A stretch of DNA of 64,000 nt, from assembly GCF_004343705.1 (NCBI RefSeq), contig NZ_SKFH01000007.1:1-64000 (forward strand), written 5' to 3'. The stretch's first letter is position 1. The number at the start of each line of letters is the position of its first letter. Shown piece by piece: positions 33,479-50,726 of the stretch. The stretch is from Flaviaesturariibacter aridisoli. Its GTDB lineage: Bacteria; Bacteroidota; Bacteroidia; Chitinophagales; Chitinophagaceae. The notes beneath the pieces were generated by a model. That model was given only the letters and a program-made list of their open reading frames with translations, was not told the DNA's origin and searched no databases. Both the position numbers and the translations under genes were made by a program.

Positions 33479-33560
33479 ATGGCTGCGTAGCTCAATTGAA
33501 TAGAGCATCTGACTACGGATCAGAAGGTTTCAGGTTTGAATCCTGACGCGGTCACGAAGA
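33479..33560 (+). repeat. left attachment repeat (82 bp)
   Basis: It is identical to 50727-50808 and spans the whole tRNA plus two bases before and six after. Beyond 33560 the sequences differ. Confidence 0.95.
33481..33554 (+). tRNA. tRNA-Arg (anticodon ACG), left copy
   Basis: The cloverleaf folds as acceptor ggctgcg/cgcggtc (with G-U pairs), D stem gctc/gagc, anticodon stem tctga/tcaga around loop ctacgga (ACG), and T stem tcagg/cctga. CCA is not encoded. It keeps the chromosomal promoter at 33456. Confidence 0.97.
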
Positions 33561-33591
33561 GAGTCTTACTGAAAAGTAGGACTCTTTTTTT
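33561..33591 (+). terminator. terminator downstream of the left tRNA copy
   Basis: A 10-bp stem with one G-U pair (gagtcttact/agtaggactc) and a gaaa loop is followed by a T run. It lies inside the element, so the element supplies this terminator. Confidence 0.85.
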
Positions 33592-33654
33592 ATGCTCTAA
33601 ATCAAGCGGTTACGCTTAGAGTGGCAGAGACCGACACGTCCCCAGTTCCCTACT

Positions 33655-33706
33655 TGTTTCAGTACTGTTTCAGTAACCGGTGTTCACCAAAAATTCTACT
33701 GAAACA
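33655..33706 (+). promoter_or_regulatory. candidate integrase arm-type sites, left
   Basis: TGTTTCAGTA occurs at 33655-33664 and 33666-33675, spaced one helical turn apart, and inverted at 33697-33706 overlapping the integrase start. The same word occurs three times at the right end, suggesting integrase arm binding. Binding near the ATG could also repress integrase. Confidence 0.65.
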
Positions 33707-34917
33707 TGAACATCACTTTTGCCTTGGAACTTAGTAGTAGCAAGGGCTCCAATGGAGAACAAAGCATCTTGGTCCGGCTTACCCAAAACCGCAGGATGAA
33801 ACGGATCAGCACCGGGATTAAAGTGGAAAGCCGGTATTGGGACAAGGCCAAACAGCTGGTAAAACGGGGGCATCCCCTGTACCAGGAATACAACGCTGTC
33901 CTATCGGAAAAACTCAGGGCCGTGACCAATGTCTACGCAGAGCTGCTAAAAAAGTCAGCCGACGTAGTTTTGGAAGACGTGGTGCATGAACTAGAGAACG
34001 CTTCCGGCTCCGTAGTGTCTTTCTTTGATTTTGCCCACCGTACCAAGCTAGCGGAGATCAAAGGACGGGGAAAGCTCGGCACCCTTCGCCGGTATGAAGC
34101 AGTACTCAGCAAGCTGCGGGACTACGTGGGAAAAGATCTTCCAATACGCAGGATCAATTACACCTTCCTTCAGCAGTACAGTAACCACCTCCGCTCTGAG
34201 CTGAAGAACTCAGAAGATACTGTTTCAGCGAACCTAAGCGTGATCAGGTCCATTCTGAACGAGGCTATCCGCCACGGGGCCTACACGGACCGGAATCCCT
34301 TTGACCAGCTCCAGTTGAAATACACGGACAACACCAAGGAAAAGCTCACGCTGGACGAACTGCGGCGGATTTTTACCACAGAGCTCCCCACAATACCTAC
34401 GCTGCTGCTGGCCCGGGACGTCTTCCTGGCATGTTTCTTAGCGGAGGGCAGCCGGGCCGGCGATATCATCCAGATGAAGCGGGAGCATATTCAGAATGGA
34501 TGCCTGGTGTTCCGGCAAACCAAAACCGGGATGCACATGGCAGTACCGATAACGCCCCCATTACAAGAGATCATAGACCGCCAGCCTTCGAACGGCCCCT
34601 ACATCTTTCCGCTGCTGAACGGAGAGAAGCGGGTAAATGAGATCGTGGTAAACAGCCGGCTGACGATGGTGAACAAGTACCTACGGGAACTTGCCAAGTA
34701 TACGAACATCTGTAAGAAGCTCACCACCCACGTAGCCAGACACACCTTTACGGACATGGCTCTTCAGGCTACAGGGGGAAACATCTACGACGTACAGAAG
34801 TCCTTGGGACACACGTCTGTGAAAACCACGGAGCTCTATAGCCGACAGTTAGTAAACTACCAACGAAAAAACCTGACAGAGCAGGTTCTTGTAATGATAT
34901 ATGACAAAAAGAAGTAG
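33706..34917 (+). CDS. tyrosine recombinase/integrase
   Basis: The 403-residue recombinase has an N-terminal arm-binding domain, a SAM-like core-binding domain, and a C-terminal catalytic domain. The catalytic residues are in place: Arg250 (EGSRAGD), Lys273, His342 and Arg345 (HVARH), His369 (LGHTS) and the nucleophile Tyr378 (ELYSR). This is the standard Bacteroidota mobile-element integrase layout. It should integrate and excise the element at the tRNA-Arg site. Confidence 0.96.
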   Translation: MNITFALELSSSKGSNGEQSILVRLTQNRRMKRISTGIKVESRYWDKAKQLVKRGHPLYQEYNAVLSEKLRAVTNVYAELLKKSADVVLEDVVHELENASGSVVSFFDFAHRTKLAEIKGRGKLGTLRRYEAVLSKLRDYVGKDLPIRRINYTFLQQYSNHLRSELKNSEDTVSANLSVIRSILNEAIRHGAYTDRNPFDQLQLKYTDNTKEKLTLDELRRIFTTELPTIPTLLLARDVFLACFLAEGSRAGDIIQMKREHIQNGCLVFRQTKTGMHMAVPITPPLQEIIDRQPSNGPYIFPLLNGEKRVNEIVVNSRLTMVNKYLRELAKYTNICKKLTTHVARHTFTDMALQATGGNIYDVQKSLGHTSVKTTELYSRQLVNYQRKNLTEQVLVMIYDKKK

Positions 34918-34931
34918 GTGCCGCAGCTGCC

Positions 34932-35288
34932 CTACTTCTTTTCACCAGCAAAGTATGTGTAGATCTGTGATATTACCCAGATTACGGCGGCTGCTATGGC
35001 CAGGTAGATTGCTATTTTGAATGCAAAACTCACGATCGTGCTTACCAACTCAAGGATCAAAATCAGAATTGGGACGCCGGCCAGAAAAGCAGCTAGGAAC
35101 AAAAGTCCCGTTCCGAGCCCCTTGATAGCCTTGATATTTTGAAGAATGAAGCCGATGACTCCAACCACGGCTCCGGCTTTTATGCCCCATAGTAATTCGG
35201 CTTTTGAAAGGTGGTCCTCATCGTCCTGGGCAAAACAGACGGTTACAAGAAGGAGGAACAGTACGGTACAACTTACTCGTTTCAACAT
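34932..35288 (-). CDS. hypothetical membrane protein
   Basis: The 118-residue protein has a signal peptide-like N-terminus cleaved near CFAQ, then three hydrophobic helices. No family is recognised. It runs opposite to the neighbouring element genes and is 14 bp past the integrase stop, convergent with it. Confidence 0.65.
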   Translation of the reverse strand: MLKRVSCTVLFLLLVTVCFAQDDEDHLSKAELLWGIKAGAVVGVIGFILQNIKAIKGLGTGLLFLAAFLAGVPILILILELVSTIVSFAFKIAIYLAIAAAVIWVISQIYTYFAGEKK

Positions 35289-35395
35289 GACAGTTAGTTT
35301 GGACCAAGGTAATTAGATCTGTCCTCAATGCAAAGGTTCTAAACCTAATCATGTTATTCTAAGCATTGGAACTACTCGAAATTTATTGAGAAACA

Positions 35396-35403
35396 TATCT
35401 TTA
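35396..35403 (+). promoter_or_regulatory. candidate promoter of the defence operon (TATCTTTA)
   Basis: A one-base variant of TAnnTTTG lies 17 bp upstream of the hsdM ATG, the only gap long enough for the cluster's promoter. Confidence 0.45.
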
Positions 35404-35420
35404 CGCAAAGACCAAAACCA

Positions 35421-36968
35421 ATGGCTCGAGCTAAGAAAGAGAAAACCCAGGAGCAGAAACCCTTTGAGCAGATGCTATGGCAGGCTGCCGATAAGCTCCG
35501 GAAGAATATTGACGCCGCAGAATATAAACACTACGTTCTCGGCCTCCTTTTCCTCAAATACGTGAGTGATGCCTTTGAGGAGCTGCACCAGACGATCCTG
35601 AATAAGGAGGGCGAGCACGCTTACGATGATCCGGAAGACAAGCTGGTGTATAGTTCCCAATACGTGTTTTTCGTTCCTCCCCATGCCCGCTGGAGCCACC
35701 TGGTGAGCCGGGCCAAGCTGCCGACCATCGGAGAGGACGTAGATAACGCCATGGACCTCATCGAAAAGGAAAATCCCAAACTCCGAGGTGTGCTGCCCAA
35801 GCAGTTCGGCCGCCCGCAACTGGATAAGATGGTACTGGGTGAGCTGATTGACCTGATCAACAACATTAACCTAGGAGATGAAGCGGCCCGAAAAAAAGAC
35901 CTCCTTGGCGTCGTGTACGAGTACTTCCTCGGCCAGTTTGCATTGGCGGAAGGACGCAAGGGCGGACAGTTCTATACGCCCCGCTCCGTGGTGCAGCTCC
36001 TTGTTGAAATGCTCCAACCTGACCACGGTAAAGTATATGACCCCTGCTGTGGCAGCGGGGGAATGTTCGTGATGAGTGAGAAGTTTGTGCTGCAGCACCA
36101 AGGCCGGATCGACGATATCACCATCTACGGACAGGAAAGCAACCAGACTACGTGGAGGCTGGCCGTGATGAATCTAGCTATTCGCGGCATTGATCCAGAG
36201 CAGGTGAAGTGGAACGCTGAAGGAAGCTTTCTGAAGGACGCCCACCCTGACCTGAAAGCCGACTTCATCATTGCTAACCCGCCCTTCAATATTTCCGACT
36301 GGAGTGGAGAACTGCTTCGGAATGACGGTCGGTGGAAGTATGGCGTACCACCAACAGGGAACGCGAACTACGGCTGGCTCCAACATATGCTTTACCACCT
36401 ATCACCCACAGGAAAGGCGGGTGTTGTTCTCTCAAAAGGAGCATTAACAACAAAGTCGGGTGGAGAATACGAGATCCGGAAAAACATGATAGAAGCCGGC
36501 GTTATTGATTGTATTGTAAACCTTCCCACGAAGCTGTTTTTAAACACGCAGATCCCAGCTTGTCTTTGGTTTTTGAACCGGGATGAAAACAGGAAGCGGA
36601 AAGGTCAGATTCTGTTCATTGATGCCCGGAATCTGGGACATTTGATCAACCGGCGGACGCGTGAATTTACTGACACAGATATTCAAAGGATTGCGGACAC
36701 CTATCACCACTGGCTCAATGAGCGAGAATATTATGAGGATATTCCCGGATTCTGTATGAGTTCCAGCCTTCGCGACGTTACACAGATGGACTATGTTCTA
36801 ACCCCTGGACGTTACATTGGCTTACCAGATGATGAGGATGATTTCAATTTTGATGAAAAATTTTCAGAGCTTAAACGGTCCTTGGAGTTCGAAATAAAGA
36901 AGGAGTACGAACTGAATGACCGAATACTTCGAAACCTATCACTCTTAAAACCTTATTCTAATGGGTGA
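35421..36968 (+). CDS. hsdM: type I restriction-modification DNA methyltransferase subunit
   Basis: The 515-residue protein has an N-terminal HsdM domain, the SAM motif DPCCGSGGMF at about 207-216 and the N6-adenine catalytic motif NPPF at 286-289. HsdM methylates adenine in the sequence set by HsdS. It overlaps hsdS by 8 bp. Confidence 0.97.
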   Translation: MARAKKEKTQEQKPFEQMLWQAADKLRKNIDAAEYKHYVLGLLFLKYVSDAFEELHQTILNKEGEHAYDDPEDKLVYSSQYVFFVPPHARWSHLVSRAKLPTIGEDVDNAMDLIEKENPKLRGVLPKQFGRPQLDKMVLGELIDLINNINLGDEAARKKDLLGVVYEYFLGQFALAEGRKGGQFYTPRSVVQLLVEMLQPDHGKVYDPCCGSGGMFVMSEKFVLQHQGRIDDITIYGQESNQTTWRLAVMNLAIRGIDPEQVKWNAEGSFLKDAHPDLKADFIIANPPFNISDWSGELLRNDGRWKYGVPPTGNANYGWLQHMLYHLSPTGKAGVVLSKGALTTKSGGEYEIRKNMIEAGVIDCIVNLPTKLFLNTQIPACLWFLNRDENRKRKGQILFIDARNLGHLINRRTREFTDTDIQRIADTYHHWLNEREYYEDIPGFCMSSSLRDVTQMDYVLTPGRYIGLPDDEDDFNFDEKFSELKRSLEFEIKKEYELNDRILRNLSLLKPYSNG

Positions 36969-38214
36969 ATGGAGAGAGACAACGCTTGGTGAAATCCTTG
37001 GAGCCAAAGGGTATATAAGAGGGCCGTTTGGATCCTCACTTAAACGTAATGACATGAAGAGTTCTGGGACACCTGTTTACGAACAGATGCATGCAATCTA
37101 TGGACATAGAAAATTTCGTTTTTTTGTTGATGACGAGAAGCTAGGTGAGCTTTCACGGTTTCAGGTAAAACCTAATGATCTCATTATTAGCTGCTCAGGT
37201 ACAGTCGGACGAATATCTACGATTTCAAATAGTGACCCTAAAGGAATTATTAGCCAAGCTTTATTAATACTAAGGCCTGACACCTCTTTAGTTCGGCCCC
37301 AATTTCTCAAGTACTTCTTGACATCGGAGTTAGGTCAGCATCATCTTTTATCTGCATCTCACGGATCGGTCCAACCAAATATCTCAGAAAGAAAAATAGT
37401 AGAAAAAATACCCGTTGATTTACCTGACCCTGATACTCAGGATTTAATAGTTGAAGTTCTATCTAGCCTCGACGACAAAATAGAAATTCTTCAACACCAG
37501 AACAAAACGCTGGAGCAGCTAGCGGAGACGTTGTTTCGGCAGTGGTTTGTGGTGAACGAACTTGACGAAACTTTAACGACGACGCTTGGGGAGCAGACCA
37601 CAATTCTTAGAGGTTTGAGCTATAAGGGGGCAGGGCTAACCGAACAATCTGATCTTTTGGCCGTGCCAATGATCAATCTAAACTCAGTGTTTGAAGGTGG
37701 CCATTTTAAGGAGTCTGGTACCAAATACTATAATGGTGACTTCAAAGAACGCCACCTGATATTCCCAGGAGATGTGTTCGTGACAAATACCGAGCAGGGG
37801 CATGAGCACCGACTGATTGGGCACGCCGCTATCGTCCCAAGGAGTATCGGGGAAAGAGCAATCTTCAGTCAACACGTTTACCGGATTGTGCCGAAGAACA
37901 ATGCACTTACCCCCGCCTTTCTTTACCACCTGTTTAATCATTCACCGATGCGGGACCAAGTGATTGGAGCTACAAACGGGTCGACGGTAAACATGCTTTC
38001 TCTTGAGGGACTGGAACGCTGTACTTTTAGTTTGCCTGATGGTGAGCGACTGACGCATTTTAATACCATCAGCGGAGATCATCAGAAGAAGATAGAGGCC
38101 AATAACGAGCAGATAAAGACACTGGCTGGTACCCGAGATCTGATTTTACCTAAACTTATGTCGGGGGAAATCCGTGTTGTAGAAGCTGCAGAACAAATAC
38201 TTGAAACCGCTTAA
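36961..38214 (+). CDS. hsdS: type I restriction-modification specificity subunit
   Basis: The 417-residue protein has two target-recognition domains (opening GEWRETTLGEI and then TTLGEQTTILRG), each followed by a helical spacer (SSLDDKIEILQHQNKTLEQLAE and QKKIEANNEQIKTLAG). These TRDs read two half-sites. Its first half is visibly AT-richer than hsdM, as is common for exchanged TRDs. Confidence 0.93.
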   Translation: MGEWRETTLGEILGAKGYIRGPFGSSLKRNDMKSSGTPVYEQMHAIYGHRKFRFFVDDEKLGELSRFQVKPNDLIISCSGTVGRISTISNSDPKGIISQALLILRPDTSLVRPQFLKYFLTSELGQHHLLSASHGSVQPNISERKIVEKIPVDLPDPDTQDLIVEVLSSLDDKIEILQHQNKTLEQLAETLFRQWFVVNELDETLTTTLGEQTTILRGLSYKGAGLTEQSDLLAVPMINLNSVFEGGHFKESGTKYYNGDFKERHLIFPGDVFVTNTEQGHEHRLIGHAAIVPRSIGERAIFSQHVYRIVPKNNALTPAFLYHLFNHSPMRDQVIGATNGSTVNMLSLEGLERCTFSLPDGERLTHFNTISGDHQKKIEANNEQIKTLAGTRDLILPKLMSGEIRVVEAAEQILETA

Positions 38215-38225
38215 GTCTCCATACG

Positions 38226-39095
38226 ATGAAGGCCCACCATCTCTACGAAAGCTATCCTGATATTTTCCAACCGAAGAAGCTGCCAGAATACCTGCAGTTC
38301 TCAGATATCCTACCGTTTTTCATTGATGATGGAACCGAATCCGAGCGGCCTTCCAGTTCCGCGCGGCCAGTAAAAGTCCTACGCTCGCGGCCGCAAGCCG
38401 AGACACTAGTACCAGTCAAAGGCAAGACATTGGATGACATGATCGAGCCGGGTGAAGATGGAATACCGATGCTCACCCATAACGGTCAGATCCTGGCATT
38501 GTACCTTCCTTTTCATTTCTTCTACCGGCCCGACCAGAGTGAATTTGAACAGTGGTGGGGTATCTGGATCACCGAGACAGCCATTTATGATGTACTTGAG
38601 CCGCTGCTAAGCCACCTTCCGATTAACGCCGCTCAGAGACAGCTGCTGGCCGAAACCTACATCGTCAATTTTGGCCTCTTTTACCACAAAGTAGAGATGT
38701 TCGTTAGCCGGAACGAGGTCTTTGAACGTGAGCCGCTCTATAAATACCATTTTAGCAAATTGAAAAAGGAGCTCCTAAAGCAGATCGACAGACACGCCCA
38801 TACCTACGCAGCTTTGCGGGTTGATCAGGCGGTAAATAAGCGGCTGGAGAGCATTGGGAGAAAGGAGCGGGCTCAAGCGGCCACGATCTTTCGAGAGCTC
38901 TTTGAATACGGGTGGTACAATGAGGAAGCCGACTTGCTGAACGGTATTTACAACGAGATGCACCAACCCGGGCGGCATCGTAACAAGGAGATCTGGACGG
39001 ATCTGGGACACTGGTCGGATGCGGGGATCGTGTCGACTAAAAGAGATAATGTTTTCATCGTTCCGGAGATCATCCCGGGAAGACGTCCAAAATAA
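38226..39095 (+). CDS. uncharacterised protein between hsdS and the Shedu-like gene
   Basis: The 289-residue protein has no domain I recognise. It is soluble, with no signal or membrane helix, and has a hydrophobic core (ALYLPFHFFYRP, residues about 92-103) and a helical C-terminal half. Tight spacing (12 bp after hsdS, 44 bp before the next gene) suggests cotranscription and a defence-linked role, which is inferred. Confidence 0.85.
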   Translation: MKAHHLYESYPDIFQPKKLPEYLQFSDILPFFIDDGTESERPSSSARPVKVLRSRPQAETLVPVKGKTLDDMIEPGEDGIPMLTHNGQILALYLPFHFFYRPDQSEFEQWWGIWITETAIYDVLEPLLSHLPINAAQRQLLAETYIVNFGLFYHKVEMFVSRNEVFEREPLYKYHFSKLKKELLKQIDRHAHTYAALRVDQAVNKRLESIGRKERAQAATIFRELFEYGWYNEEADLLNGIYNEMHQPGRHRNKEIWTDLGHWSDAGIVSTKRDNVFIVPEIIPGRRPK

Positions 39096-39139
39096 AATGC
39101 AGTTTAAGTTTCCTACCTTGTAACCAAACCAACTGACTC

Positions 39140-40312
39140 ATGGCCGCACTTGGCTCAAATAACACGAACGATGAATTCCTCCAGAACCTACGGGAGGGTT
39201 TCGTGTATGGAAACAGGTTTAAGAACGGCATTGGGAGCTATTTCCGGCGGGCATTCGATGAAGTAACGGAGCAAGAAACCGGATTCACGATAAACGTTAC
39301 CAGCCGTATAGTAGTCAGGGCTACCTATATTTCTTCAAACAACGAGATCAATGGAATTGAGCTGACCAAACTCGATAACGGTAAAACAGTACAACAAATT
39401 TCTCTGACTGGCCTCAGTACGAAAGGGATCTGTGAGTTTTTGGAGTTCTTGACATCAGCTGACTTAAAAAACCTCACTGGCAGATTTCGAGTTCCCGTCA
39501 CCTTCAACGATTTTGACCCAGAGGTGGAAGAAGCCGTTCGGGCTCTTTGTTCACGGCGCGACGCTACGAACTTTCTTGAAACATTACTAAAAGAGGACTG
39601 CGTAACCTCTCGGGACATAGTCAATACAGGATACCGAAAAAGGAGCCTGAACACCTTTGATCGGCTTGTCAACGAGGATGACTACTGGAGAGTGTATGCA
39701 GGAGAGCAAGGAGTCAGTGATCACCAAGAGGAGAAGGTAATCCAACACTTTCTGAAAAATAACCCATGGATTTTTGGCTACGGCCTTGATTACCGCTACC
39801 TAGGCATCATCCAACCCGAAGCTCTATTATCTAATCCTAGTTTCGATGGGTCAGGCGGGGTAATCACCGACTTTTGGATGGGCGATCCGAGATTCACCGT
39901 TTTTGTCGAACTGAAAAGACCCGGCACCAGCCTGTTTTCCTCAAAAAACCGCAGTGGGTCGTGGAGATTGTCAAATGAACTTTTCTGGGCGGTTTCACAG
40001 ATTCTTGAACAGAAAGCTGCGGGTACGGAGAAAGTAAAGAACACAAAGTACCTTCCTAGCGGTGAGCTGAACGATCAGTCAGCATACGATCCCAAAGTGA
40101 TTCTGGTGATCGGACGGTGGAAGGAACTGAATGACGCGTCCAATCCCGAAGAACGGGAAATAAAACGACGAACTTTTGAGCTTTTCCGTAGGGATAGCCG
40201 GAATATTGAAATCCTTACGTTTGATGAACTCTTGGAGCGGGCAAGGTTTATAGCAGGTTCGGCATCGTCACCTGAACTCCCTGATGATGATATTCAAGAT
40301 CTTCCATTCTGA
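39140..40312 (+). CDS. Shedu-type (DUF4263) defence nuclease
   Basis: The 390-residue protein ends in a DUF4263 domain of the Shedu anti-phage family: NNPWIFG at 207-213, then the PD-(D/E)xK core with Asp244 (ITDFW) and Glu257/Lys259 (VELKRP), and a helix ending TFDELLERARF. The N-terminal 190 residues are an unassigned regulatory or sensor part. Shedu is a known single-gene anti-phage system; placing it inside a type I operon and beside a cold-shock gene is unusual. Confidence 0.88.
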   Translation: MAALGSNNTNDEFLQNLREGFVYGNRFKNGIGSYFRRAFDEVTEQETGFTINVTSRIVVRATYISSNNEINGIELTKLDNGKTVQQISLTGLSTKGICEFLEFLTSADLKNLTGRFRVPVTFNDFDPEVEEAVRALCSRRDATNFLETLLKEDCVTSRDIVNTGYRKRSLNTFDRLVNEDDYWRVYAGEQGVSDHQEEKVIQHFLKNNPWIFGYGLDYRYLGIIQPEALLSNPSFDGSGGVITDFWMGDPRFTVFVELKRPGTSLFSSKNRSGSWRLSNELFWAVSQILEQKAAGTEKVKNTKYLPSGELNDQSAYDPKVILVIGRWKELNDASNPEEREIKRRTFELFRRDSRNIEILTFDELLERARFIAGSASSPELPDDDIQDLPF

Positions 40313-40318
40313 TAAACT

Positions 40319-41044
40319 ATGAACGGTATCGTCACCTTTTACAACAAGGAAAAATTCTACGGTTTCATTGAATCACAGGAGAGCAAAGAGTCATATTTCT
40401 TTCATGTGGACACGTCAAACCCGAGAAAGGAGCGGAAAGCGGCTCCTAAGGAGGGAGATGAAGTAGTCTTTAATCTCGTAGAGGACAAAACACACCCGGG
40501 TCAAAAAATAGCCGTGGTCCAGGAAGTTCTAGGGAATGAGCGATGGGAAGCTCTCATTGAACGTTTACGACTACAGCCTGTTCAAAGGGGATACTTAAAA
40601 AGAATAAACGGCTCTTGGTTTTTCAAGGTAATGCCTGAAAAGATGATGATACCAATGAAGGGCCCAGGCGTCTACGAGATTAACGTGGCGGAAAAATATG
40701 AAGCTCGAGAAAATCAACTGGTTGACGTCACCATGACTGTTTCCGCAAAGGGGGCCGCAAAAGCTCAGTTGACTGATGCGGCGTTCCATCCTGATTTTCT
40801 TGAAGTAAAAGCAGCATTGGAAGCGGAAGCTGAACTTCCAGCTCGTATTTCTGGACAGAACAAGGATGTATATTTTGTTCAGCTGAAAAGCCTACCCTTG
40901 TGTGTCATCCGAAAGAAAACGCTACCAAAGGCTATTTTTTTTGAGAAGGGTCAGGAAGTGCTTGTCAATGTCCATATGGCAGCTGATTCAATGATTGCAG
41001 TACATCCTGCTGGTGTACCACTAAATACCACCTTAGATGCCTGA
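40319..41044 (+). CDS. cold-shock-domain protein with C-terminal extension
   Basis: The 241-residue protein starts with a cold-shock fold (GIVTFYNKEKFYGFIE, then SYFFHV and GDEVVFNL), a single-strand nucleic-acid binder. The C-terminal 150 residues are beta-rich and unassigned, possibly further OB-like folds. It is 6 bp after the Shedu gene and overlaps the next gene by 8 bp, so it may serve the nuclease as an accessory. That link is inferred. Confidence 0.82.
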   Translation: MNGIVTFYNKEKFYGFIESQESKESYFFHVDTSNPRKERKAAPKEGDEVVFNLVEDKTHPGQKIAVVQEVLGNERWEALIERLRLQPVQRGYLKRINGSWFFKVMPEKMMIPMKGPGVYEINVAEKYEARENQLVDVTMTVSAKGAAKAQLTDAAFHPDFLEVKAALEAEAELPARISGQNKDVYFVQLKSLPLCVIRKKTLPKAIFFEKGQEVLVNVHMAADSMIAVHPAGVPLNTTLDA

Positions 41045-41900
41045 TCAGCTGAGCCCTTTTACCGAAACTTGCGAGCGGCTGGTTCAACACGCTCTCAGTG
41101 AGCTTTCTGGCTTTATATCCAGAGACTTTGAGAGCGAAAAGATGCTACACCTACTCAATTGCTACGAGAAAAAACTTAAACTGCTAGAGCTACTGAACGA
41201 GGTGCCGGATGCCCCTCATAATTCAGTTCTTTTTAAGGAGTTCGGGTGGGCGTCTGACCATAATTCGGCACAGGTTCGTTCGAAGAACTACGAGCAGACC
41301 ACGGCCACCTATTTGGTTTTATCCGCTCTTTGTTTAGTCTCATCTCACAATTTGAGTAATGAGGTCTACTTGACTGATGAAGCCGAAGTAAATAGAGTGG
41401 CGGGCAGGTTCCGATACAATGCGAACATGACAATTTCACCAAAGACCCCACTACGCCGGACCCTGAGCTTCAGGATCTTCGTAATGGAACGCAATTCCCT
41501 TTATCTTGAAAGCAATCCGAGAGAGAACATCTTGAAGGACCTTGACGTAAGCCCGTTCATCGTCCACAGCTGCTCACAAAACTCGAAAAATTACCTTGTC
41601 TCATCGAGAGTGGGGTATATATGCGGTGTGTGTAGTAAACAGAGCAGGGTCGTACAAAGCTGGGAGTCTGAATATCAGCGTGTCTTTAAACAGAAGGGAT
41701 GCACTGATCTGTATAGGTTTTTAAAGGTATCTCCGGAGCTAACCGATCTGCAGAAGTTATTGTATTGGACCCGGAGCATCCTTCCTGAAGCAGAAGCCAC
41801 CCATTATCTCATAAACGAGTTACGGAACTATGAGGAAGAAAAAGTATGGGAGAACATCCTGAAGTTCCATACGGTTGACAACCAAGAAAATGACAACTAG
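41037..41900 (+). CDS. uncharacterised protein downstream of the cold-shock gene
   Basis: The 287-residue protein is soluble, helix-rich at both ends, with one CGVCSK cysteine pair near residue 200 that might bind metal as a dimer. No family is recognised. It overlaps the cold-shock gene by 8 bp and precedes hsdR by 50 bp. Confidence 0.85.
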   Translation: MPDQLSPFTETCERLVQHALSELSGFISRDFESEKMLHLLNCYEKKLKLLELLNEVPDAPHNSVLFKEFGWASDHNSAQVRSKNYEQTTATYLVLSALCLVSSHNLSNEVYLTDEAEVNRVAGRFRYNANMTISPKTPLRRTLSFRIFVMERNSLYLESNPRENILKDLDVSPFIVHSCSQNSKNYLVSSRVGYICGVCSKQSRVVQSWESEYQRVFKQKGCTDLYRFLKVSPELTDLQKLLYWTRSILPEAEATHYLINELRNYEEEKVWENILKFHTVDNQENDN

Positions 41901-41950
41901 AATCACAAACGAAAAAGCCACTTGATCATCTAAGCCAGCCCCTGTACCAC

Positions 41951-44900
41951 ATGAGCTCTATATCCGAAGATCATATTGAACGATGGGTCATTGAGGCCCT
42001 ATCAAAAGATGGTTTCAAATACCTGACTCCTGAATCCATTGACCCAGATGTTGCGGGTTCATTGCGAACATCCTACCAGGAGCTGCTGCTGAAAGACCGT
42101 CTGCAGCAAGCCGTAGTGGCTCACAATCCTACCATTCCTATCACGGCCATTCAGCAGGCTATCAAAGAAGTGGAGCGGGTCAATGCCCACGGTGACCTAG
42201 TATCTTGCAACGCCTACTTTCAAAAGCTGCTCACTGAAGGCGTGGACGTGACATTCATGGAGAAGGGTGAAGAACGCACACAGAAAGTGTGGCTGGTGGA
42301 TATTCACAACCCTGGTAAAAACGATTGGGTTGTCACCCACCAGATGACCATTATTGAGAACGGCCAAAACAAGCGGCCCGACGTATTGATCTTCCTTAAC
42401 GGCATCCCCGTAGTGGTGATGGAGCTGAAAAACGCTACTGATCCGAACGCCACCATCGACAAAGCCTACCAGCAGCTTCAAACGTACCACGCCGCGATTC
42501 CCTCCCTATTCCATTATAACCTGTTGGAAATCATTTCCGATGGTCTTGAAGCCAAGGTCGGAACAATCACTTCCGACATTTCCCGGTTTTTGAGCTGGAA
42601 GACGGCGGATGGGAAGACGACCGCCGACCGAAAAACAAGTGAGCTGCAGGTGATGATGGAGGGGCTACTCAACCCCGGTACCCTGCTGGATATGTTCCTC
42701 AACTTCATCGTTTTTGAACAGTATAAATATGAGGATCTTAAAACAAAGACGATTCAGATTGGCACAATGAAGAAGGTTGCTGCCTATCATCAGTATTACG
42801 CGGTGAAGAAGGCTGTTCTTTCAGCCCAGCGTGCCAGCTCGGAAGCCGGCAACAAAAAAGGTGGCGTTGTGTGGCATACTCAGGGTAGTGGTAAAAGTCT
42901 TTCCATGGTGTTTTTTACCGGTCTACTGGTAAAACACCTGAACAACCCCACTATCGTCGTTATTACTGACCGCAATGACCTGGATGATCAGCTCTTCGAA
43001 ACCTTTGCCAACTGTAAGCAGCTGCTCCGGCAGGTGCCCGTTCAGATAGAGAGCCGCGCAGCCCTGGTAAAGGAACTCAAACAGCGTCAGTCAGGCGGTA
43101 TCTTCTTTACGACCATTCAAAAGTTCCTTCCCGAGGAAGGTAACAGCCAGTTTGAGCTGCTATCTGACCGTCGGAACATCATCGTAATAGCCGATGAAGC
43201 CCACCGGACCCAGTACGGCTTTGAGGCTAAAGTGCGGACCTACAAGGACGATCAGGGTAAGGAGATCGGCTCCGAGGTCTCCTACGGCTTTGCCAAGCAC
43301 ATGCATGATGCCCTGCCGGCCGCCACTTTTGTAGGCTTCACCGGAACCCCAGTAGAGGCAGCAGATAAGAACACGAAAGCCGTATTTGGTGAGTACGTAG
43401 ACATCTACGACATCGAGCGGGCCGTCCGGGACGGGGCTACAGTACCTATCTTCTACGAGAACCGTTTTGCGAAGCTGAAACTGGACCAGTTCTTCGTGGA
43501 GGAACTGGATGACCGGCTTTCCCATGTGGCCGAAGGCCTGCCTGAGTACATCGTAAAGCAATCGGTGGAGAAAGCGACCCGCATGGAAGCAATCGTCGGT
43601 AACCAGGAGCGGATGGAAGCCGTTGCGCTGGACATCATCACCCACTTTGAAGACCGCACCGAAACCTTAAAAGGGAAAGCTTTGGTTGTAGCCATGTCCC
43701 GGAACGTAGCGGTAAAGCTCTATAACGAGATGGTCAGCCTCCGTCCGGACTGGCACAGTGAGGATGACACCGCCGGAAACCTCAAAGTCATTATGACCGG
43801 CAGTTCGTCGGATGATGCCTTCCTGCAACCTCATATACGAAACAAAGAAGGACGCTCCAGGATCGCGGCTCGTTTGAAAGAACCGAATGATCCCCTTCAG
43901 ATGGTGATCGTGGTAGACATGTGGCTCACTGGGTTTGACGCTCCCGTACTCCACACCCTATACCTGGACAAGGACATGTCAGGACACAACCTTATGCAAG
44001 CCATAGCCCGTGTCAACAGGGTTTTCGGATCAAAGCCGGGTGGCTTGGTGGTGGACTACGTACCGGTAACCGGCAACCTGAAAGCTGCCCTTAAAGTCTA
44101 TACGGAAAGTCAAGGCAAGGGAAATATCGCCGCAGATATTAGTGAGGCCGTGGCCTTTATGCTCACCAAGCTTGAAGTGGTGCAGCAGATGTACCATGGG
44201 TTTGAATACCCTGAGTACTTCACATCCCCTGTAGGGAGAAAGATGAACATTATCCTGGAGGCTGAAGATCATATCCTTTCACTGGAGAACGGAAAGGAAC
44301 GGTACCTGAAAGAAGTCACGGCCCTCAGTAAAGCGTACGCTCTGTCTAAGGCGGAGCCGGCAGCCAAAGAGATCACCGAAGAAGTGGCGTTTTTTCAGGC
44401 CGTTAGAGCACGTCTGGCTAAGTTCGATACCCAAGTAACCGGGCAGAGGAGGAAGGAATTTGAAGGTACTGTACGCAATCTAGTGGAAGCGGCCGTAGCT
44501 GCAGACGGGATTGTTAACCTGCTGGATCAGGCAGGTCTCGAAAAACCGGAGATTTCAATCTTTTCCGATGAGTTCATGGACGAAGTCCGTAATATGAAGC
44601 AGCGGAACGTAGCCGTGGAACTGCTGAAGAAGCTCCTTTCCGACCAGATAAAGATCCGGTTCAAACGGAACATCGTGGCTACTAAAAACTTCTCAGAAAA
44701 GCTGACCGAGGCCATCAACCGGTATAACCGGAAAGCTATTACCGCCCTAGAGATGATCGAGTTGCTGCTGGAAATCTCTGGAGAGGTAAATAAAGAAACA
44801 GAACGCGGCCAAGACTTAGGCCTGACGGAAACCGAGAAGGCTTTCTATGATGCCTTGCGGGTCAACAAGTCAGCGTTGGAGCTCATAGGGGATGAAAAGC

Positions 44901-45103
44901 TGATGATCATTGCGCGGGAGCTGGTTTCTCGTGTTAAAAGGAGCACTACGTTGGATTGGACGGTCCGGCAGTCCGCGAAGGACCGTGTAAAGCTTGAAGT
45001 TAAGCGGGTGCTACGGTTTCATAAGTATCCGCCTGACGACGAGCCCAGAGCCACTGAAACTGTGCTCGAGCAGGCGGAACTCCATGCAGCAGATCTGGTA
45101 TAG
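41951..45103 (+). CDS. hsdR: type I restriction subunit R
   Basis: The 1050-residue translocating nuclease has an N-terminal PD-(D/E)xK core (Asp144, Glu158, Lys160), Walker A GSGKS at 312-316, a DEAH box at 415-418, a SF2 helicase C-domain with FTGTPVE and LTGFDAPVLHTLYLDK, and a C-terminal helical HsdM-binding region. It would cut unmethylated DNA after translocation. It is separated from hsdM-hsdS by four genes. Confidence 0.97.
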   Translation: MSSISEDHIERWVIEALSKDGFKYLTPESIDPDVAGSLRTSYQELLLKDRLQQAVVAHNPTIPITAIQQAIKEVERVNAHGDLVSCNAYFQKLLTEGVDVTFMEKGEERTQKVWLVDIHNPGKNDWVVTHQMTIIENGQNKRPDVLIFLNGIPVVVMELKNATDPNATIDKAYQQLQTYHAAIPSLFHYNLLEIISDGLEAKVGTITSDISRFLSWKTADGKTTADRKTSELQVMMEGLLNPGTLLDMFLNFIVFEQYKYEDLKTKTIQIGTMKKVAAYHQYYAVKKAVLSAQRASSEAGNKKGGVVWHTQGSGKSLSMVFFTGLLVKHLNNPTIVVITDRNDLDDQLFETFANCKQLLRQVPVQIESRAALVKELKQRQSGGIFFTTIQKFLPEEGNSQFELLSDRRNIIVIADEAHRTQYGFEAKVRTYKDDQGKEIGSEVSYGFAKHMHDALPAATFVGFTGTPVEAADKNTKAVFGEYVDIYDIERAVRDGATVPIFYENRFAKLKLDQFFVEELDDRLSHVAEGLPEYIVKQSVEKATRMEAIVGNQERMEAVALDIITHFEDRTETLKGKALVVAMSRNVAVKLYNEMVSLRPDWHSEDDTAGNLKVIMTGSSSDDAFLQPHIRNKEGRSRIAARLKEPNDPLQMVIVVDMWLTGFDAPVLHTLYLDKDMSGHNLMQAIARVNRVFGSKPGGLVVDYVPVTGNLKAALKVYTESQGKGNIAADISEAVAFMLTKLEVVQQMYHGFEYPEYFTSPVGRKMNIILEAEDHILSLENGKERYLKEVTALSKAYALSKAEPAAKEITEEVAFFQAVRARLAKFDTQVTGQRRKEFEGTVRNLVEAAVAADGIVNLLDQAGLEKPEISIFSDEFMDEVRNMKQRNVAVELLKKLLSDQIKIRFKRNIVATKNFSEKLTEAINRYNRKAITALEMIELLLEISGEVNKETERGQDLGLTETEKAFYDALRVNKSALELIGDEKLMIIARELVSRVKRSTTLDWTVRQSAKDRVKLEVKRVLRFHKYPPDDEPRATETVLEQAELHAADLV

Positions 45104-45809
45104 GGGGGGCACACTCGGTTCTTCATTAAGACCCCCAAAATGCCCCCCTAACCCCCCATAACAGGAGTGTTATTATGGGATGAGGAGCATTTAGACGGTA
45201 AACCCGCTTTTACTATAAAAGAGGGTTACCCCAAGCCGGAAAATCCAGTGATCCAGACGCGTGGTTGACTTTTGTTTCCGCACTGTTTACCATTGAATAA
45301 ACCAGCGCAGGGGATTCTTTTGAAGGACCTGTAGTGACTGTTTCAGTCCATACCCCGGGGTGAGCCATACGACACCCCTCTCAGGACAGCCATCACATGT
45401 GATTGTTTCCCTTTCAGCTCTTCCCGGTGGTGATCGGGCCTTAGTTCCAGTCTGCTTCCACCGCTTTTGGAGCACGAAGCTCCTCTCATATATAAAATAC
45501 CGATTATTTCCCAAAGATCCGTCCGTTCTGGTATGCCGGCATCCACAAACTGTACACATAATGTGGAAGGCTCTCACAACTAGTAATACAAGGACTTTCA
45601 CGTCACCGGTAGTCAGGGGTGGTTGACTCTTCCATCGGCCCTTTTCATGGCCGTTCGTTTGGTGGACGGGTGGCAGAGAATGGAGTGTCCGCTCAGGTAA
45701 GCATACTTCAGGTATTCGTCAAGGAGTGAAACCATCGTCTCCAGCTTTTGGATTAAATAGCTATAACCCGCACCTTTAGAAGGAGGTCACAAAAAAACAA
45801 CCATGCTCT
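45104..45809. other. long gap downstream of hsdR, no confident gene
   Basis: A hairpin aacccgctttta/taaaagagggtt (one mismatch) near 45200-45227 may end hsdR transcription. A minus-strand frame at 45287-45601 encodes a cysteine-containing peptide (CTVCGC, CDGC) without a known family or promoter; it is not called. A GTTTCAGT word occurs near 45339. No origin of transfer is evident. Confidence 0.5.
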
Positions 45810-46349
45810 ATGTACCTTGACAAGATCAAACAGGTTCCGGCGCCTACGCTCCAAAGCATCGGTCAGTTCGTGGCTAATTTTTGTCAGGCACACAGCTGGT
45901 ACAAACACTTCGGCCGGAACGAGCCCAGCCCGGTAATATTCTTTCTCGATCCAAACGCCAGCCGGCCGGTAGTCATTGGGCCTATTCCACATAAAGGGGG
46001 AGCACCGGCATTGTCCTTTGGCCCCCCTGTAGCGGGAAGGAAAGCATCCCTTTGGCGGTATTACTCCGATCGGTACACCAAAAACCACCTCACCAACGAA
46101 AATGGGGAACTCCAAAACCCGAATGATTACTTGGGGCTCAACGTGCTAGCGGAGGATGGCAGCCTCTTTCCGGTACCGGGAGACGTAGCAGCACTGGGAA
46201 CGATCGGTTTGACAGCATACATTCATGAGAGCTTTAGCCGCGGGCGGGAGAAAGAACAGGTCTGCCATCAACAAGAAAAGGAAAGGCTCAGAAATCATCT
46301 GATCGACGTCTGGAATCATCTGCGGCCTGATGCTCCAATGGAGTTCTAA
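45810..46349 (+). CDS. hypothetical protein
   Basis: The 179-residue protein has no recognised domain. It is polar with a HFGRNEPSPVIFFLDP segment and a helical, charged C-terminus. The ATG at 45810 is used because an ATG seven bases upstream meets an early stop. Function unknown. Confidence 0.65.
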   Translation: MYLDKIKQVPAPTLQSIGQFVANFCQAHSWYKHFGRNEPSPVIFFLDPNASRPVVIGPIPHKGGAPALSFGPPVAGRKASLWRYYSDRYTKNHLTNENGELQNPNDYLGLNVLAEDGSLFPVPGDVAALGTIGLTAYIHESFSRGREKEQVCHQQEKERLRNHLIDVWNHLRPDAPMEF

Positions 46350-46539
46350 ACCCAAACCGAGTACCATAATTTTTCTACCCCCGCCGTCACCACGGGCTAG
46401 CTAACCCCCCGGGCCACCAGAGCTAGAACTAGCCCCCGGGTCCGAAATGTCTCGTGTTCGTGTGAAACTCCCTCTACCAATCATCAGACTCCCCTCCTTA
46501 CGATTAGTCGGGGTTCCCCCGGTCATTAAAATTTATAAG

Positions 46540-46884
46540 ATGGAAAACAAAGCAATCCAAGGGATGATGGCTGTTGATCAGTTTCTCGAGTTTTTGGGTA
46601 TCAATGAACTCCAGTTCTTGAAAGGAAAGGGCCGTGAGTACGTAGGCACGCCTGTCGGCACCGTATTCGTGGCCCGGGAGTTCGATAAGTCCAAACCGGC
46701 TTACATAGCCGTGGCGGGGCCGAACCTTATCAGTGAACGTGGGGAAAGCTTGGCTGGAACACTCTGGCTGGTGAATAGCTCCGTGCAGCTCGGCTCCGTG
46801 AAGCTGGTACGCAACAACAGCAAACCCTATCCGCGTCCGGCAATGAACCTGGACCGCGCACAACTGAACGACGTGGGGGCCTAA
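46540..46884 (+). CDS. small hypothetical protein
   Basis: The 114-residue protein starts MENKAIQGMM and is predicted to be beta-rich, with no known family. The upstream in-frame ATG at 46447 is rejected because its extra residues are Pro/Leu/Arg-rich translated gap sequence. A terminator follows at 46908. Confidence 0.6.
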   Translation: MENKAIQGMMAVDQFLEFLGINELQFLKGKGREYVGTPVGTVFVAREFDKSKPAYIAVAGPNLISERGESLAGTLWLVNSSVQLGSVKLVRNNSKPYPRPAMNLDRAQLNDVGA

Positions 46885-46907
46885 ACCTCCCACGTTTACC
46901 ACATGAA

Positions 46908-46938
46908 AGGCTGACAGCATACCGCTGTTAGCCTTTTT
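46908..46938 (+). terminator. terminator before the AAA ATPase gene
   Basis: An 11-bp stem with one G-U pair (aggctgacagc/gctgttagcct) is followed by ttttc and ttttt. Confidence 0.85.
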
Positions 46939-46963
46939 CTTTTTAAACCTTAAACGTTTACAG

Positions 46964-47839
46964 ATGAAACTACAGACTGCTCAACGAAAAAGAGCCCGCA
47001 TCAAAATGGGGTTACAGGGACCGTCCGGGTCTGGAAAGACTTTCTCCGCTTTGTTATTAGCTTATGGGCTCTGCAACGACTGGTCAAAGGTGGCAGTGGT
47101 CGACACAGAAAACCATAGCTCCGAGCTTTATGCCCACCTCGGACCCTTCCAGGTGCTTCCGATGCGGGCTCCCTTCACGCCGGAACGCTACATGCAGGCT
47201 ATGGAAGCCTGTGAAGCGGGCGGTATCGAGGTCATTATCATTGACTCTGCCACGCACGAGTGGGAAGAGCTGCTCGATCACCACAGCAAGCTGCCCGGAA
47301 ACAGCTTTACTAACTGGGGTAAGATCACGCCCCGCCACAATGCTTTCGTACAACGTGTGCTGCAGTCACCGACTCATGTGATCTGCACCATCCGAACCAA
47401 GCAGGACTACGTGCTGAACGAGAAGAACGGGAAGATGACACCTGAGAAGGTCGGCCTGAAAGGAGTCCAGCGGGATGGTATTGAGTACGAGCTCACACTT
47501 GTCTTTGATCTGGACATCAAGAACCTGGCAGTGGCATCAAAGGACCGTACCGGGCTTTTCTTCGGCAAGCCGGAACAGCGGCTGTCGGTTGAAACAGGGC
47601 TGGCAATCCTGGAGTGGTGTAATACAGGTGCCGACATCACCGCTCACGATGTGTCGGGGCGGATCGGTGATTGCCGCAGCATTCAAGAGCTGCTGGAGCT
47701 TTATCAGGAGTACCCGCAGTTCCAGGGGGTGCTGAAGCCAGAGTTTGAGCAGCATAAGCGGCGGATCATGATCAACCAGGAAGCTCAGAAAGAATTAGCT
47801 AACCAAAACCTCAGTACTAATGGAACCGATCATTCATAA
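46964..47839 (+). CDS. AAA-family ATPase (phage/plasmid type)
   Basis: The 291-residue RecA-like ATPase has Walker A GPSGSGKT at 19-26 and a Walker B VIIIDSATHEWEE. Similar proteins in phages and mobile elements are single-strand annealing or DNA-handling accessory ATPases. It overlaps the DUF3871 gene by 20 bp, so the two act together. Confidence 0.82.
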   Translation: MKLQTAQRKRARIKMGLQGPSGSGKTFSALLLAYGLCNDWSKVAVVDTENHSSELYAHLGPFQVLPMRAPFTPERYMQAMEACEAGGIEVIIIDSATHEWEELLDHHSKLPGNSFTNWGKITPRHNAFVQRVLQSPTHVICTIRTKQDYVLNEKNGKMTPEKVGLKGVQRDGIEYELTLVFDLDIKNLAVASKDRTGLFFGKPEQRLSVETGLAILEWCNTGADITAHDVSGRIGDCRSIQELLELYQEYPQFQGVLKPEFEQHKRRIMINQEAQKELANQNLSTNGTDHS

Positions 47840-48815
47840 TACTTCCCTTTATCCTGTCCCCGAAACGGACCAGCAGCAGGAGTCAACGCTCTCTGTAGCC
47901 TCCAACCCCTTTATCGAGGCAAACACGCTCTCCGTGGACTTGGAGGAAATCCGTGATGAACACATAATCCCCGTTTACGCCAAGGACAACGAGCCGCTGA
48001 TCTCTCATTTTGACTTCCTTGAGACCGTGCATCGGCAGGTGTTGGAGGTCTACCGCGGTGAGACGATCCTGCATCCTTCAGTCCGCGTGTCGCACCCAAT
48101 CAAAGGGCGTATTCCGGATGCCCGGAACAAGCCGGCCAGCCAGCTAGAGGAATGGGAAAAGACGCTGTATTACGAACGTATGGCCTTTGTGATCGAGATC
48201 CCTTCTATAAGGGAGGACGTGGGCGGAAACGCACTATCCCTCACCATCGGTGGCGTGAAGGCCTACAATATGGACCGGCTGCACTTAAAAAAAGGAGCTG
48301 ACGAGCATTTCAAAGTCTTCGTCGGCTTTCAAAACCGGGTGTGTACGAATCTGTGTGTCTGGACAGACGGCTACCTGCAGGATCTAAGGGTGAGCAATCT
48401 TCAGCAGCTTGCGGCTGCCGTAGGTACGCTTTTGCAGACCTACGATCAAAAGCGGCATCTGGCGGAGCTGGCTACGTTTCCGGGTCTCCACCTCGAAGAG
48501 CGGCAGTTTGCCCAACTACTTGGGCGGGCACGCCTGTATCCCTATTTACAGGGGGAGCTCCGTCGAACGCTTACACCGCTGCTCCTCACCGACACTCAGA
48601 TGGGTACCGTTGCCCGGGACTATTACAAAGATCCCAACTTCTGTGGGTCGGGGAACGGGCAGATCAACCTCTGGCGGGCATACAACCTGCTTACCGGGGT
48701 TAATAAGAGCAGCTACGTGGACAGCTTTCTGGATCGGGCGTTAAATGCCTTTCAGTTCATCCAACAGGTCCGCCTGACGCTCGAGGGTAAAGCCAACAGC
48801 TGGTTCCTGCAGTGA
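47820..48815 (+). CDS. DUF3871 protein
   Basis: The 331-residue protein belongs to DUF3871, a Bacteroidota mobile-element family of unknown role. Recognised segments are HPSVRVSHPIKGRIPDARNK and NLTxGVNKSSYVDSF-like LLTGVNKSSYVDSF. It overlaps the AAA gene by 20 bp and is followed by a terminator. Confidence 0.85.
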   Translation: MEPIIHNTSLYPVPETDQQQESTLSVASNPFIEANTLSVDLEEIRDEHIIPVYAKDNEPLISHFDFLETVHRQVLEVYRGETILHPSVRVSHPIKGRIPDARNKPASQLEEWEKTLYYERMAFVIEIPSIREDVGGNALSLTIGGVKAYNMDRLHLKKGADEHFKVFVGFQNRVCTNLCVWTDGYLQDLRVSNLQQLAAAVGTLLQTYDQKRHLAELATFPGLHLEERQFAQLLGRARLYPYLQGELRRTLTPLLLTDTQMGTVARDYYKDPNFCGSGNGQINLWRAYNLLTGVNKSSYVDSFLDRALNAFQFIQQVRLTLEGKANSWFLQ

Positions 48816-48834
48816 GCCTATTATTTTTTCACCA

Positions 48835-48869
48835 GCCCACCCACGATATCTGTTCGGGGTGGGCTTTTT
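48835..48869 (+). terminator. terminator after DUF3871
   Basis: The stem agcccacc/ggtgggct with a long loop is followed by five T. Confidence 0.8.
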
Positions 48870-48878
48870 ATTTCGACC

Positions 48879-49331
48879 ATGAAGAAGACGACACAGCGTG
48901 TTTCAGAGATACGGGTAAGCTACCGGCCCAGGGCGGGCCATAAGCCGTTGATCCAGACTTCCCAAGATGCTTTCAATGAACTGCATCCGTTCTTTCCTTC
49001 CCAGACCATTGCCCTACAAGAGCGGGTGGTAGCCCTATATCTCAACCGGGCCAATCGGGTACTGGGGGCATACGAGGTTTCCAAGGGCGGGATATCGGGT
49101 ACCGTTGTTGACGCCCGGCTGATCCTGTCCGTCGGGCTCAAGGTAGCCTGCAGTGGAATTATTCTCGGCCACAATCACCCATCGGGCAATCCGACACCGT
49201 CACAACAAGATCTGGAACTAACCGCTAGGCTCAGAGAGGCCTGTAAACTCGTCGATATGCGGCTACTGGATCATCTGATCCTGATCCCAGACGGACGCTT
49301 TCAGAGCCTGGCCGATGAAGGATACCTCTAA
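48879..49331 (+). CDS. RadC-like JAB-domain protein
   Basis: The 150-residue protein has the JAMM motif HNHPSGNPTPSQQD (His98, His100, Asp111), the zinc-binding signature of RadC-like proteins. Despite the name, a DNA repair role is not established; such genes are common on mobile elements. Confidence 0.9.
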   Translation: MKKTTQRVSEIRVSYRPRAGHKPLIQTSQDAFNELHPFFPSQTIALQERVVALYLNRANRVLGAYEVSKGGISGTVVDARLILSVGLKVACSGIILGHNHPSGNPTPSQQDLELTARLREACKLVDMRLLDHLILIPDGRFQSLADEGYL

Positions 49332-49388
49332 CCGGGGGAGTCGAGCGGTTCTTTGCCCCTTTCTGTCCGTCATCAGTAAAGGGGTTAT

Positions 49389-49396
49389 TATCTTTG
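49389..49396 (+). promoter_or_regulatory. -7 promoter element (TATCTTTG) before the structured RNA region
   Basis: An exact TAnnTTTG match lies about 70 bp before the first helix of the structured region, consistent with a transcript that begins near 49402. Confidence 0.6.
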
Positions 49397-49401
49397 TTTC
49401 A

Positions 49402-49637
49402 AACACAATGCTATCGGCATAAGAGCTTAATAACATATCATCTCGTTACGACCAATCGTAGCTTTTGTAACCGGGAAAGTCGAGAGTCCAAGTTAGATAC
49501 AAAAAGCAGCGGTGCGGTCCACGTCAAGCGTGGGCTACACTCTGCATGTATCTAAACGGCCTCGACTCCGTCCGGTTACTGTAGATGTTGTTAGCCCACG
49601 TGTCGTTTCAGTACACCTAATTACTAAACCCTGCATT
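49402..49637 (+). ncRNA. candidate structured RNA leader
   Basis: No gene fits this gap, but the sequence folds well. Helices are gtaaccgg (49467-49474) with ccggttac (49572-49579), agtcgag (49478-49484) with ctcgact (49561-49567), and ttagatac (49493-49500) with gtatctaa (49548-49555), nested in order. Inside is hairpin ccacg/cgtgg (49519-49533). Its right strand can instead pair over 9 bp with tagcccacg at 49592-49600, outside the closing stem, giving a pseudoknot or alternative fold. It leads into the lipoprotein gene. Confidence 0.45.
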
Positions 49638-50192: not shown

Positions 50193-50207
50193 CTCAAAAC
50201 AATTTCT

Positions 50208-50618: not shown

Positions 50619-50648
50619 CCTCTGATAAAGGGGTTGCCCACTTCTTTA

Positions 50649-50656
50649 TAACTTTG
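50649..50656 (+). promoter_or_regulatory. candidate promoter (TAACTTTG) for the right tRNA copy
   Basis: An exact TAnnTTTG match inside the element, 73 bp upstream of the right tRNA. It could keep this copy transcribed. Confidence 0.45.
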
Positions 50657-50671
50657 TCATTCTCACCGGTT

Positions 50672-50715
50672 TGTTTCAGTAATGTTTCAGTAAGGACCGG
50701 GAAAGTGTTTCAGTA
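50672..50715 (+). promoter_or_regulatory. candidate integrase arm-type sites, right
   Basis: TGTTTCAGTA occurs at 50672-50681, 50683-50692 and 50706-50715. The first two are one helical turn apart, mirroring the pair at the left end. Confidence 0.65.
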
Positions 50716-50726
50716 GACCTCTGCTG

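Follow-up and report, generated by a model that had tools for sequence, protein, structure and literature searches.

A type I restriction operon on a tRNA-Arg element of Flaviaesturariibacter aridisoli encloses a Shedu nuclease in an hsdS-hsdR interval that commonly holds varied cargo

The contig NZ_SKFH01000007.1 of Flaviaesturariibacter aridisoli carries, within the 64,000-nucleotide stretch analyzed here (the window), a type I restriction-modification operon in which four additional genes, one of them encoding a Shedu nuclease, lie between hsdS and hsdR. The seven genes occupy positions 35421-45103 on the forward (+) strand in the order hsdM, hsdS, gene 3, sduA, cold-shock gene, gene 6, and hsdR, forming a nearly gapless run with intergenic distances of -8 (hsdM/hsdS), 11, 44, 6, -8, and 50 bases. 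Coordinates and family scans confirmed this arrangement, which had been proposed in a previous sequence-only reading of the window; the spacings of 44, 6, -8, and 50 bases given there were borne out, and the distance between hsdS and gene 3 is 11 bases by recount and not 12. The hsdM gene (35421-36968, +) matched the Pfam families N6_Mtase (6.4e-107, 357.9 bits) and HsdM_N (6.6e-27), and its product fell under the TIGR00497 cut-off (175.5 vs 242.75) yet reached 4.5e-182 on the type I model of PADLOC (MTase_I). The hsdS gene (36961-38214, +) matched Pfam Methylase_S in two stretches (3.9e-19, 69.9 bits) and PADLOC Specificity_I (6.2e-82), while hsdR (41951-45103, +) matched T1RH-like_C, SWI2_SNF2, and HSDR_N (379.9, 260.3, and 151.5 bits) and scored 580 bits on NCBIfam TIGR00348 (cut-off 284.55). 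Judging from these matches, the type I set is complete, with HsdM, an HsdS with two recognition regions, and an HsdR with nuclease and SWI2/SNF2 motor. We consider it quite probable that this operon, riding on an element inserted at a tRNA-Arg gene, has its hsdS-hsdR slot filled with exchangeable cargo, here Shedu and three orphan genes.

The enclosed SduA nuclease (39140-40312, +) was identified by Pfam SduA_C (2.6e-26, 93.1 bits, cut-off 27) and PADLOC SduA (PDLC00392, 1.3e-105), supporting the proposal of the sequence-only reading that a Shedu gene lies inside the operon. Its catalytic region aligns to the solved SduA 8ti8 and has the DUF4263 PD-(D/E)XK core, whose motif residues are conserved (compare also 8ti9); D244, E257, and K259 are invariant across four aligned members and, based on motif and alignment, we read them as the putative catalytic residues. 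The protein differs from the solved ones in being encoded within a restriction operon and in its N-terminal part, which lies outside the 8ti8 match (beginning at profile position 130) and gave nothing in Pfam before residue 196. The cold-shock gene (40319-41044, +) encodes 241 amino acids, of which residues 1-58 matched Pfam CSD (1.4e-07, 31.7 bits, cut-off 27). The pair is flanked by gene 3 (38226-39095, +, 289 amino acids) and gene 6 (41037-41900, +, 287 amino acids), neither of which gave a match that rose above noise in Pfam, PADLOC, NCBIfam, or PHROGs, in agreement with their initial description as genes without a recognizable family.

The operon is carried by an element integrated at a tRNA-Arg(acg) gene, which was absent from the sequence-only reading. 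This 17.2-kb integrative element (33479-50808) is flanked by perfect 82-bp direct repeats, which are 100% identical and both contain a complete tRNA-Arg(acg). The left copy (33479-33560, +, with the tRNA at 33481-33555) is a putative attachment site, and the right copy (50727-50808, +) marks the end of the element. A tyrosine integrase gene (33706-34917, +) starts 146 bases past the left repeat and matched Phage_integrase (1.7e-14), Phage_int_SAM_5 (1.7e-15), and Arm-DNA-bind_5 (9.2e-10). Moreover, the guanine plus cytosine fraction per kb was 0.44-0.54 between the repeats and 0.54-0.66 outside them, within the 28-60 kb examined. Eleven regions of the same genus were fetched, and the comparison of sites rests on two of them, L196 and L197, from the two nearest relatives examined (G698 and G695), since rlmH was not found in the other nine. 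Both have a nagB-like gene (83% in L196 and 78% in L197), rlmH nearby, and a 100% tRNA-Arg match between these two genes, on the opposite strand to that of the window in L197, and neither gave an integrase, hsdM, hsdR, DUF3871, or radC match by tblastn at 1e-5. Beside the intact tRNA copy of this element-free site, L196 has a 78-bp stretch (15266-15341) that is 85% like tRNA-Arg and may be left over from a previous insertion. In L205, one of the other nine regions, a distant match to an integrase (26%) lies close to the tRNA. The remaining element genes recognized, all on the + strand, encode an AAA_24 ATPase (46964-47839, 4.1e-16), a DUF3871 protein (47820-48815, 8.9e-108), and a RadC-like protein (48879-49331, 1.7e-33).

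Shedu genes were also found inside hsd operons of other genomes. The phylum sample of 395 genomes contained 12 with a Shedu match, including that of the window, and provided 13 other loci; a genome scan with alignment A1 gave 58 loci, reduced to 55 by dropping L060, L062, and L063, which repeat L046-L048, and the same scan with SduA as a single protein returned no match. Shedu was embedded in an hsd operon in 11 of these 68 loci (4/13 from the phylum sample and 7/55 from the genome scan), located immediately ahead of hsdR or in the hsdS-hsdR interval in nine of them and between hsdM and an hsdS in two. The proximity of Shedu and hsdR in the window is not a matter of chance, since Shedu lies directly or a few genes ahead of hsdR, in the same run, in nine other loci. 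The gene order is hsdM, hsdS, Shedu, a frame of 211 amino acids, and hsdR in L047; hsdM, a frame of 158 amino acids, hsdS, Shedu, and hsdR in L057; and hsdM, hsdS, Shedu, a frame of 94 amino acids, a SLATT-like gene (just under the cut-off), SMODS, a frame of 160 amino acids, and hsdR in L052 (3620-12975). In L046, Shedu is followed by GmrSD and hsdR, on a contig that begins before any hsdS is visible, and Shedu also precedes hsdR in L059, L064 (with a contig beginning within Shedu), L072, L081, and L099, the last of which reads hsdS, Shedu, AAA_21 ATPase, RloB, and hsdR (8257-16004). In L065 (6177-11768) and L075 (7571-15583), Shedu is located between hsdM and a downstream hsdS, and a second hsdS lies upstream of hsdM. 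The companions of the embedded Shedu genes were GmrSD, SMODS with the SLATT-like gene, Abi_C with Schlafen, AAA_21 with RloB, a Y1 transposase, or none. The SLATT-like and SMODS genes of L052 resemble a CBASS pair (two further defense systems in one slot), a RhuM gene shares the hsdM-hsdS interval with Shedu in L065, and L064 has an IS200-like Y1 transposase ahead of hsdR (1204-1665, Y1_Tnp 1e-24).

A survey anchored on hsdR revealed that the hsdS-hsdR interval is a general slot, usually filled with varied and often defense-type cargo in the phylum Bacteroidota. Of 296 phylum genomes searched for HSDR_N, 232 contained it, and the survey took in order the first 80 of the listed best-scoring matches, excluding the window (79 fetched loci plus L057), that had an open frame of at least 900 amino acids and, where the match was on the + strand, at least about 8 kb upstream. 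One interval was taken per locus and 64 of the 80 reached an hsdS; the other 16 ended at a gap of more than 400 bases or the limit of nine open reading frames (nine), a second hsdR (three), the contig end (two), or hsdM (two). At least one open reading frame of 100 amino acids or more was found in 54 of the 64 intervals, 8 had no frame of 60 amino acids or more, and a single one (L057) contained Shedu. The cargo set analyzed comprised 103 different proteins of at least 100 amino acids from the intervals reaching hsdS, excluding the L057 Shedu. Among the 25 of 94 Pfam families listed, the commonest were Fic (8), GmrSD_N (7), RhuM (6), AAA_21 (6), SMC_N (6), and AAA_15 (5), followed by PDDEXK_3, GmrSD_C, Y1 transposase (Y1_Tnp), M78 peptidase, and AAA_23 (4 each), SLFN_AlbA_2 and SIR2_2 (3 each), and McrBC (2). 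Scanning the same proteins with PADLOC gave 6 members for each of the 25 families listed, mostly candidate families. Considering that the slot usually holds varied cargo, the four genes of the window need not be one system, and their set seems to be one of the fillings that an exchangeable slot can take, because related operons occupy it with many different defense-type genes. An IS200-like Y1 transposase also stands ahead of hsdR in L117 (5476-5934, Y1_Tnp 7.8e-25), and such transposases are possibly a way for cargo to move.

The cargo was found to change faster than the adjoining hsdR. When 73 hsdR from the survey, the Shedu loci, and the window were compared, with cargo sharing defined by BLAST at E 1e-5, the pairs at least 70% identical split three ways: in 54 the cargo differed, in 10 it was shared, and in 14 one or both members lacked cargo of 100 amino acids; hence, 54 of the 64 pairs with cargo on both sides shared none. 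In addition, nine close pairs were compared at the DNA level, and in eight of them identity resumed no more than 54 bases from where hsdR was called to start. On the hsdS side, four of the nine pairs (L121/L128, L127/L128, L121/L122, and L123/L125) share a block of 55-108 conserved bases, the end of which coincides with the hsdS stop or lies no more than 14 bases from it, and L122/L128 has most of the hsdS 3' half in common. These boundaries suggest that homologous recombination may exchange the DNA that lies from the 3' end of hsdS to the 5' end of hsdR.

Several observations weigh against exchange as the whole explanation. The survey is uneven, as 23 of its 80 loci come from a single genus, its cargo frames were called mechanically and were not confirmed as genes, and the hsdR pairs in the turnover count are not independent. 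The ninth close pair, L126/L128, keeps homologous cargo and regains identity 160-198 bases before hsdR, L166/L171 stay alike for about 430 bases beyond the hsdS stop, and L124/L126 and L124/L128 have no conserved block at the hsdS end. Besides, the nearest hsdR to that of the window is 51% identical, below the range of the boundary and turnover comparisons. The Shedu genes themselves also carry a signal of common descent. A tree built by a quick method contained 62 rows, the window plus 61 of the 68 loci, 12 of them embedded; it omits L077, L078, L106, L111, L114, L115, and L116, which had no Shedu-labelled frame of at least 200 amino acids, and includes three near-identical pairs (all non-embedded) and several long branches, including those of L057, L081, and L075, which are embedded. 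On this tree the embedded label required 7 changes, at least 6 of which were forced by well-supported branches, against a mean of 11.1 after shuffling, and none of 500 shuffles was as low as 7, so that embedding is both clustered and repeated. Furthermore, L046, L047, and L059 share their Shedu and their hsdR are 64-67% identical. The Shedu-hsd association is therefore partly co-inherited, which leaves room for cooperation between the two nucleases.

Such cooperation could take the form of two-step restriction, in which HsdR would cut unmodified phage DNA, the resulting ends would license SduA to nick or degrade it, and embedding would keep both at one dose. This would fit the Shedu protein EcSduA, described as a tetramer that attaches to DNA ends and introduces nicks a set distance away (PMC12904381), as well as the repeated appearance of Shedu within hsd operons across lineages and the joint inheritance of SduA and hsdR in some loci. 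Nevertheless, we hold two-step restriction to be rather improbable. No hsd gene was seen in the fetched stretch of 57 of the 68 other Shedu loci, a count that partly reflects unseen context because several contigs end near the Shedu gene, and a weak cross-check of N6_Mtase in the genomes of 20 of these loci, with coordinates compared by eye and contigs not tied to names, revealed no missed hsdM beside Shedu. A plasmid search returned 36 records with Shedu, and all five inspected lie outside hsd operons. Moreover, the slot accepts unrelated cargo, and the match to 8ti8 does not cover the N-terminal part of the SduA of the window, so that end sensing by this protein would be conjectural.

No relatives of gene 6 were found apart from the window in 298 genomes of the order and 119 of the class, nor in plasmids, phages, and viral contigs, and the same searches gave no credible relative of gene 3; its sole weak match (24% over about 92 residues, E 7e-4) was rejected, as it has three stops inside. 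The cold-shock gene had matches in 18 other genomes of the 395, most limited to the cold-shock domain; some extend to residues 92-142 with stops inside, and one in genome G502 covers residues 106-188 (32%, E 8.6e-4). Neither the cold-shock gene nor SduA matched viral contigs, the C-terminal part of the cold-shock protein had no match in plasmids, and its last 180 residues or so gave no family above noise in the Pfam, PADLOC, NCBIfam, and PHROGs scans. Against sequences of solved structures, genes 3 and 6 returned nothing usable and the cold-shock gene returned cold-shock proteins up to residue 66 plus two weak odd matches; AlphaFold single-sequence models of genes 3 and 6 had a mean predicted local distance difference test (pLDDT) score of 37. 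The cold-shock protein also showed weak matches, below the NCBIfam cut-off, to CSD_V and to the Se72 effector. A type V retron has a cold-shock effector of this sort next to a reverse transcriptase and an ncRNA, and no reverse transcriptase was matched among the operon and element proteins scanned, a scan that took in not every open reading frame.

The close packing of these genes (a 6-bp gap between sduA and the cold-shock gene and an 8-bp overlap between the latter and gene 6) could indicate one new system made up of SduA, the cold-shock protein, gene 6, and perhaps also gene 3, in which the nucleic-acid-binding cold-shock protein and the orphans would regulate the nuclease. We regard this as unlikely, although less so than two-step restriction, given that phmmer, run on the open reading frames of the remaining Shedu and hsdR loci that were fetched, revealed no relative of gene 3, gene 6, or the cold-shock protein, and that other embedded Shedu genes are accompanied by different genes or stand alone. 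For the same reason, the cold-shock protein was rejected as a regular Shedu partner. The sequence-only reading had named a single joint occurrence of the four genes as a refutation, and this is the outcome within the collections searched: gene 3, SduA, the cold-shock gene, and gene 6 were found together in the window operon only. What recurs is Shedu inside hsd operons with other neighbors.

That one promoter would coordinate the operon, as suggested in the sequence-only reading, is conjectural. Bacteroidota promoters differ from the sigma-70-like consensus, and TAnnTTTG is the -7 pattern of this phylum. Promoter-like sites occurred at chance level, with 12 sigma-70-like sites against 10.7 expected and 22 TAnnTTTG sites in the window against 19.8 expected. 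A strong-looking sigma-70-like site (11/12 match, 41875-41903), of a consensus that may not be that of the host, lies at the gene 6 3' end just before hsdR. Upstream of hsdM, TATCTTTA (35396-35403, 18 bases from its start) is one letter off TAnnTTTG.

The R-linked open reading frames (rlo) of Campylobacter jejuni type I loci were reportedly described by Miller in 2005. Embedding of genes inside hsd operons, which the sequence-only reading took as known, is indeed documented in several publications. The rlo genes of C. jejuni intervene between hsdS and hsdR (PMC4619093, PMC5183652), as do the genes of the window, on the same strand, and L099 has an AAA_21 ATPase and RloB beside Shedu; however, none of the rlo genes mentioned in the extracts of these papers is a Shedu gene, the cold-shock gene, or either of the two orphans. 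In Vibrio cholerae, TgvAB lies within the VPI-2 type I operon and protects without HsdR restriction activity, tgvAB alone giving 10- to 100-fold less protection than the full cluster against several phages (PMC11411939). Like Shedu in the window, it is a nuclease system with type I genes around it, but it belongs to type IV, consists of two genes, and is akin to GmrSD and not to Shedu. DarTG2 of Escherichia coli, found with the RptR repressor, occupies the same slot between hsdS and hsdR (PMC12255303); that cargo is a toxin-antitoxin system with a dedicated repressor gene in front. In the window, where no search was aimed at RptR relatives, the small gene ahead of hsdM (34932-35288) matches no Pfam family and is on the opposite strand. 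No description of Shedu inside an hsd operon was found in the literature searched, mainly outside subscription journals, nor was the combination of the window met there.

A further precedent is PrrC, encoded in a type IC locus and activated upon EcoPrrI inhibition (PMC12707154), by which the cargo of the window might act as a guard, a second line released once a phage protein disables HsdMSR. We consider such a guard very unlikely, as no PrrC-like family match was found among the window cargo genes and no sequence feature physically links SduA to HsdMSR.

Overall, the locus in the window is real and well formed, and it fills an already known slot in a new way. Under the preferred reading of exchangeable cargo, a complete type I operon rides on the 17.2-kb element inserted at tRNA-Arg(acg), and HsdMSR would most likely methylate DNA and restrict what is unmethylated. 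SduA would be a separate nuclease, triggered probably by DNA ends, by analogy with EcSduA, or by another infection signal; the related VcSduA is described as restricting phage with the host cell preserved (PMC12137116). The cargo would be swapped by recombination between the conserved hsdS 3' part and the hsdR 5' end. By analogy with TgvAB, the simplest reading is two independent systems in one operon.

The slot survey is a more general result than the single locus. The gap between hsdS and hsdR had been remarked upon as a possible hotspot for defense systems in PMC12255303, and this remark is now a measured pattern in one phylum, in which the majority of resolved intervals are occupied, turnover of cargo outpaces that of the adjoining hsdR, and DNA identity is regained close to where hsdR begins. 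Our results also raise the testable question of whether restriction cuts feed an end-sensing nuclease of the same operon. It is a rather doubtful proposal that HsdR and SduA act in series, with the orphan proteins tuning the hand-over; if true, the slot would be where selection assembles restriction partners, beyond a mere parking place. The hsdS-hsdR gap is a ready hunting ground for new defense genes, for which the three orphans of the window are candidates.

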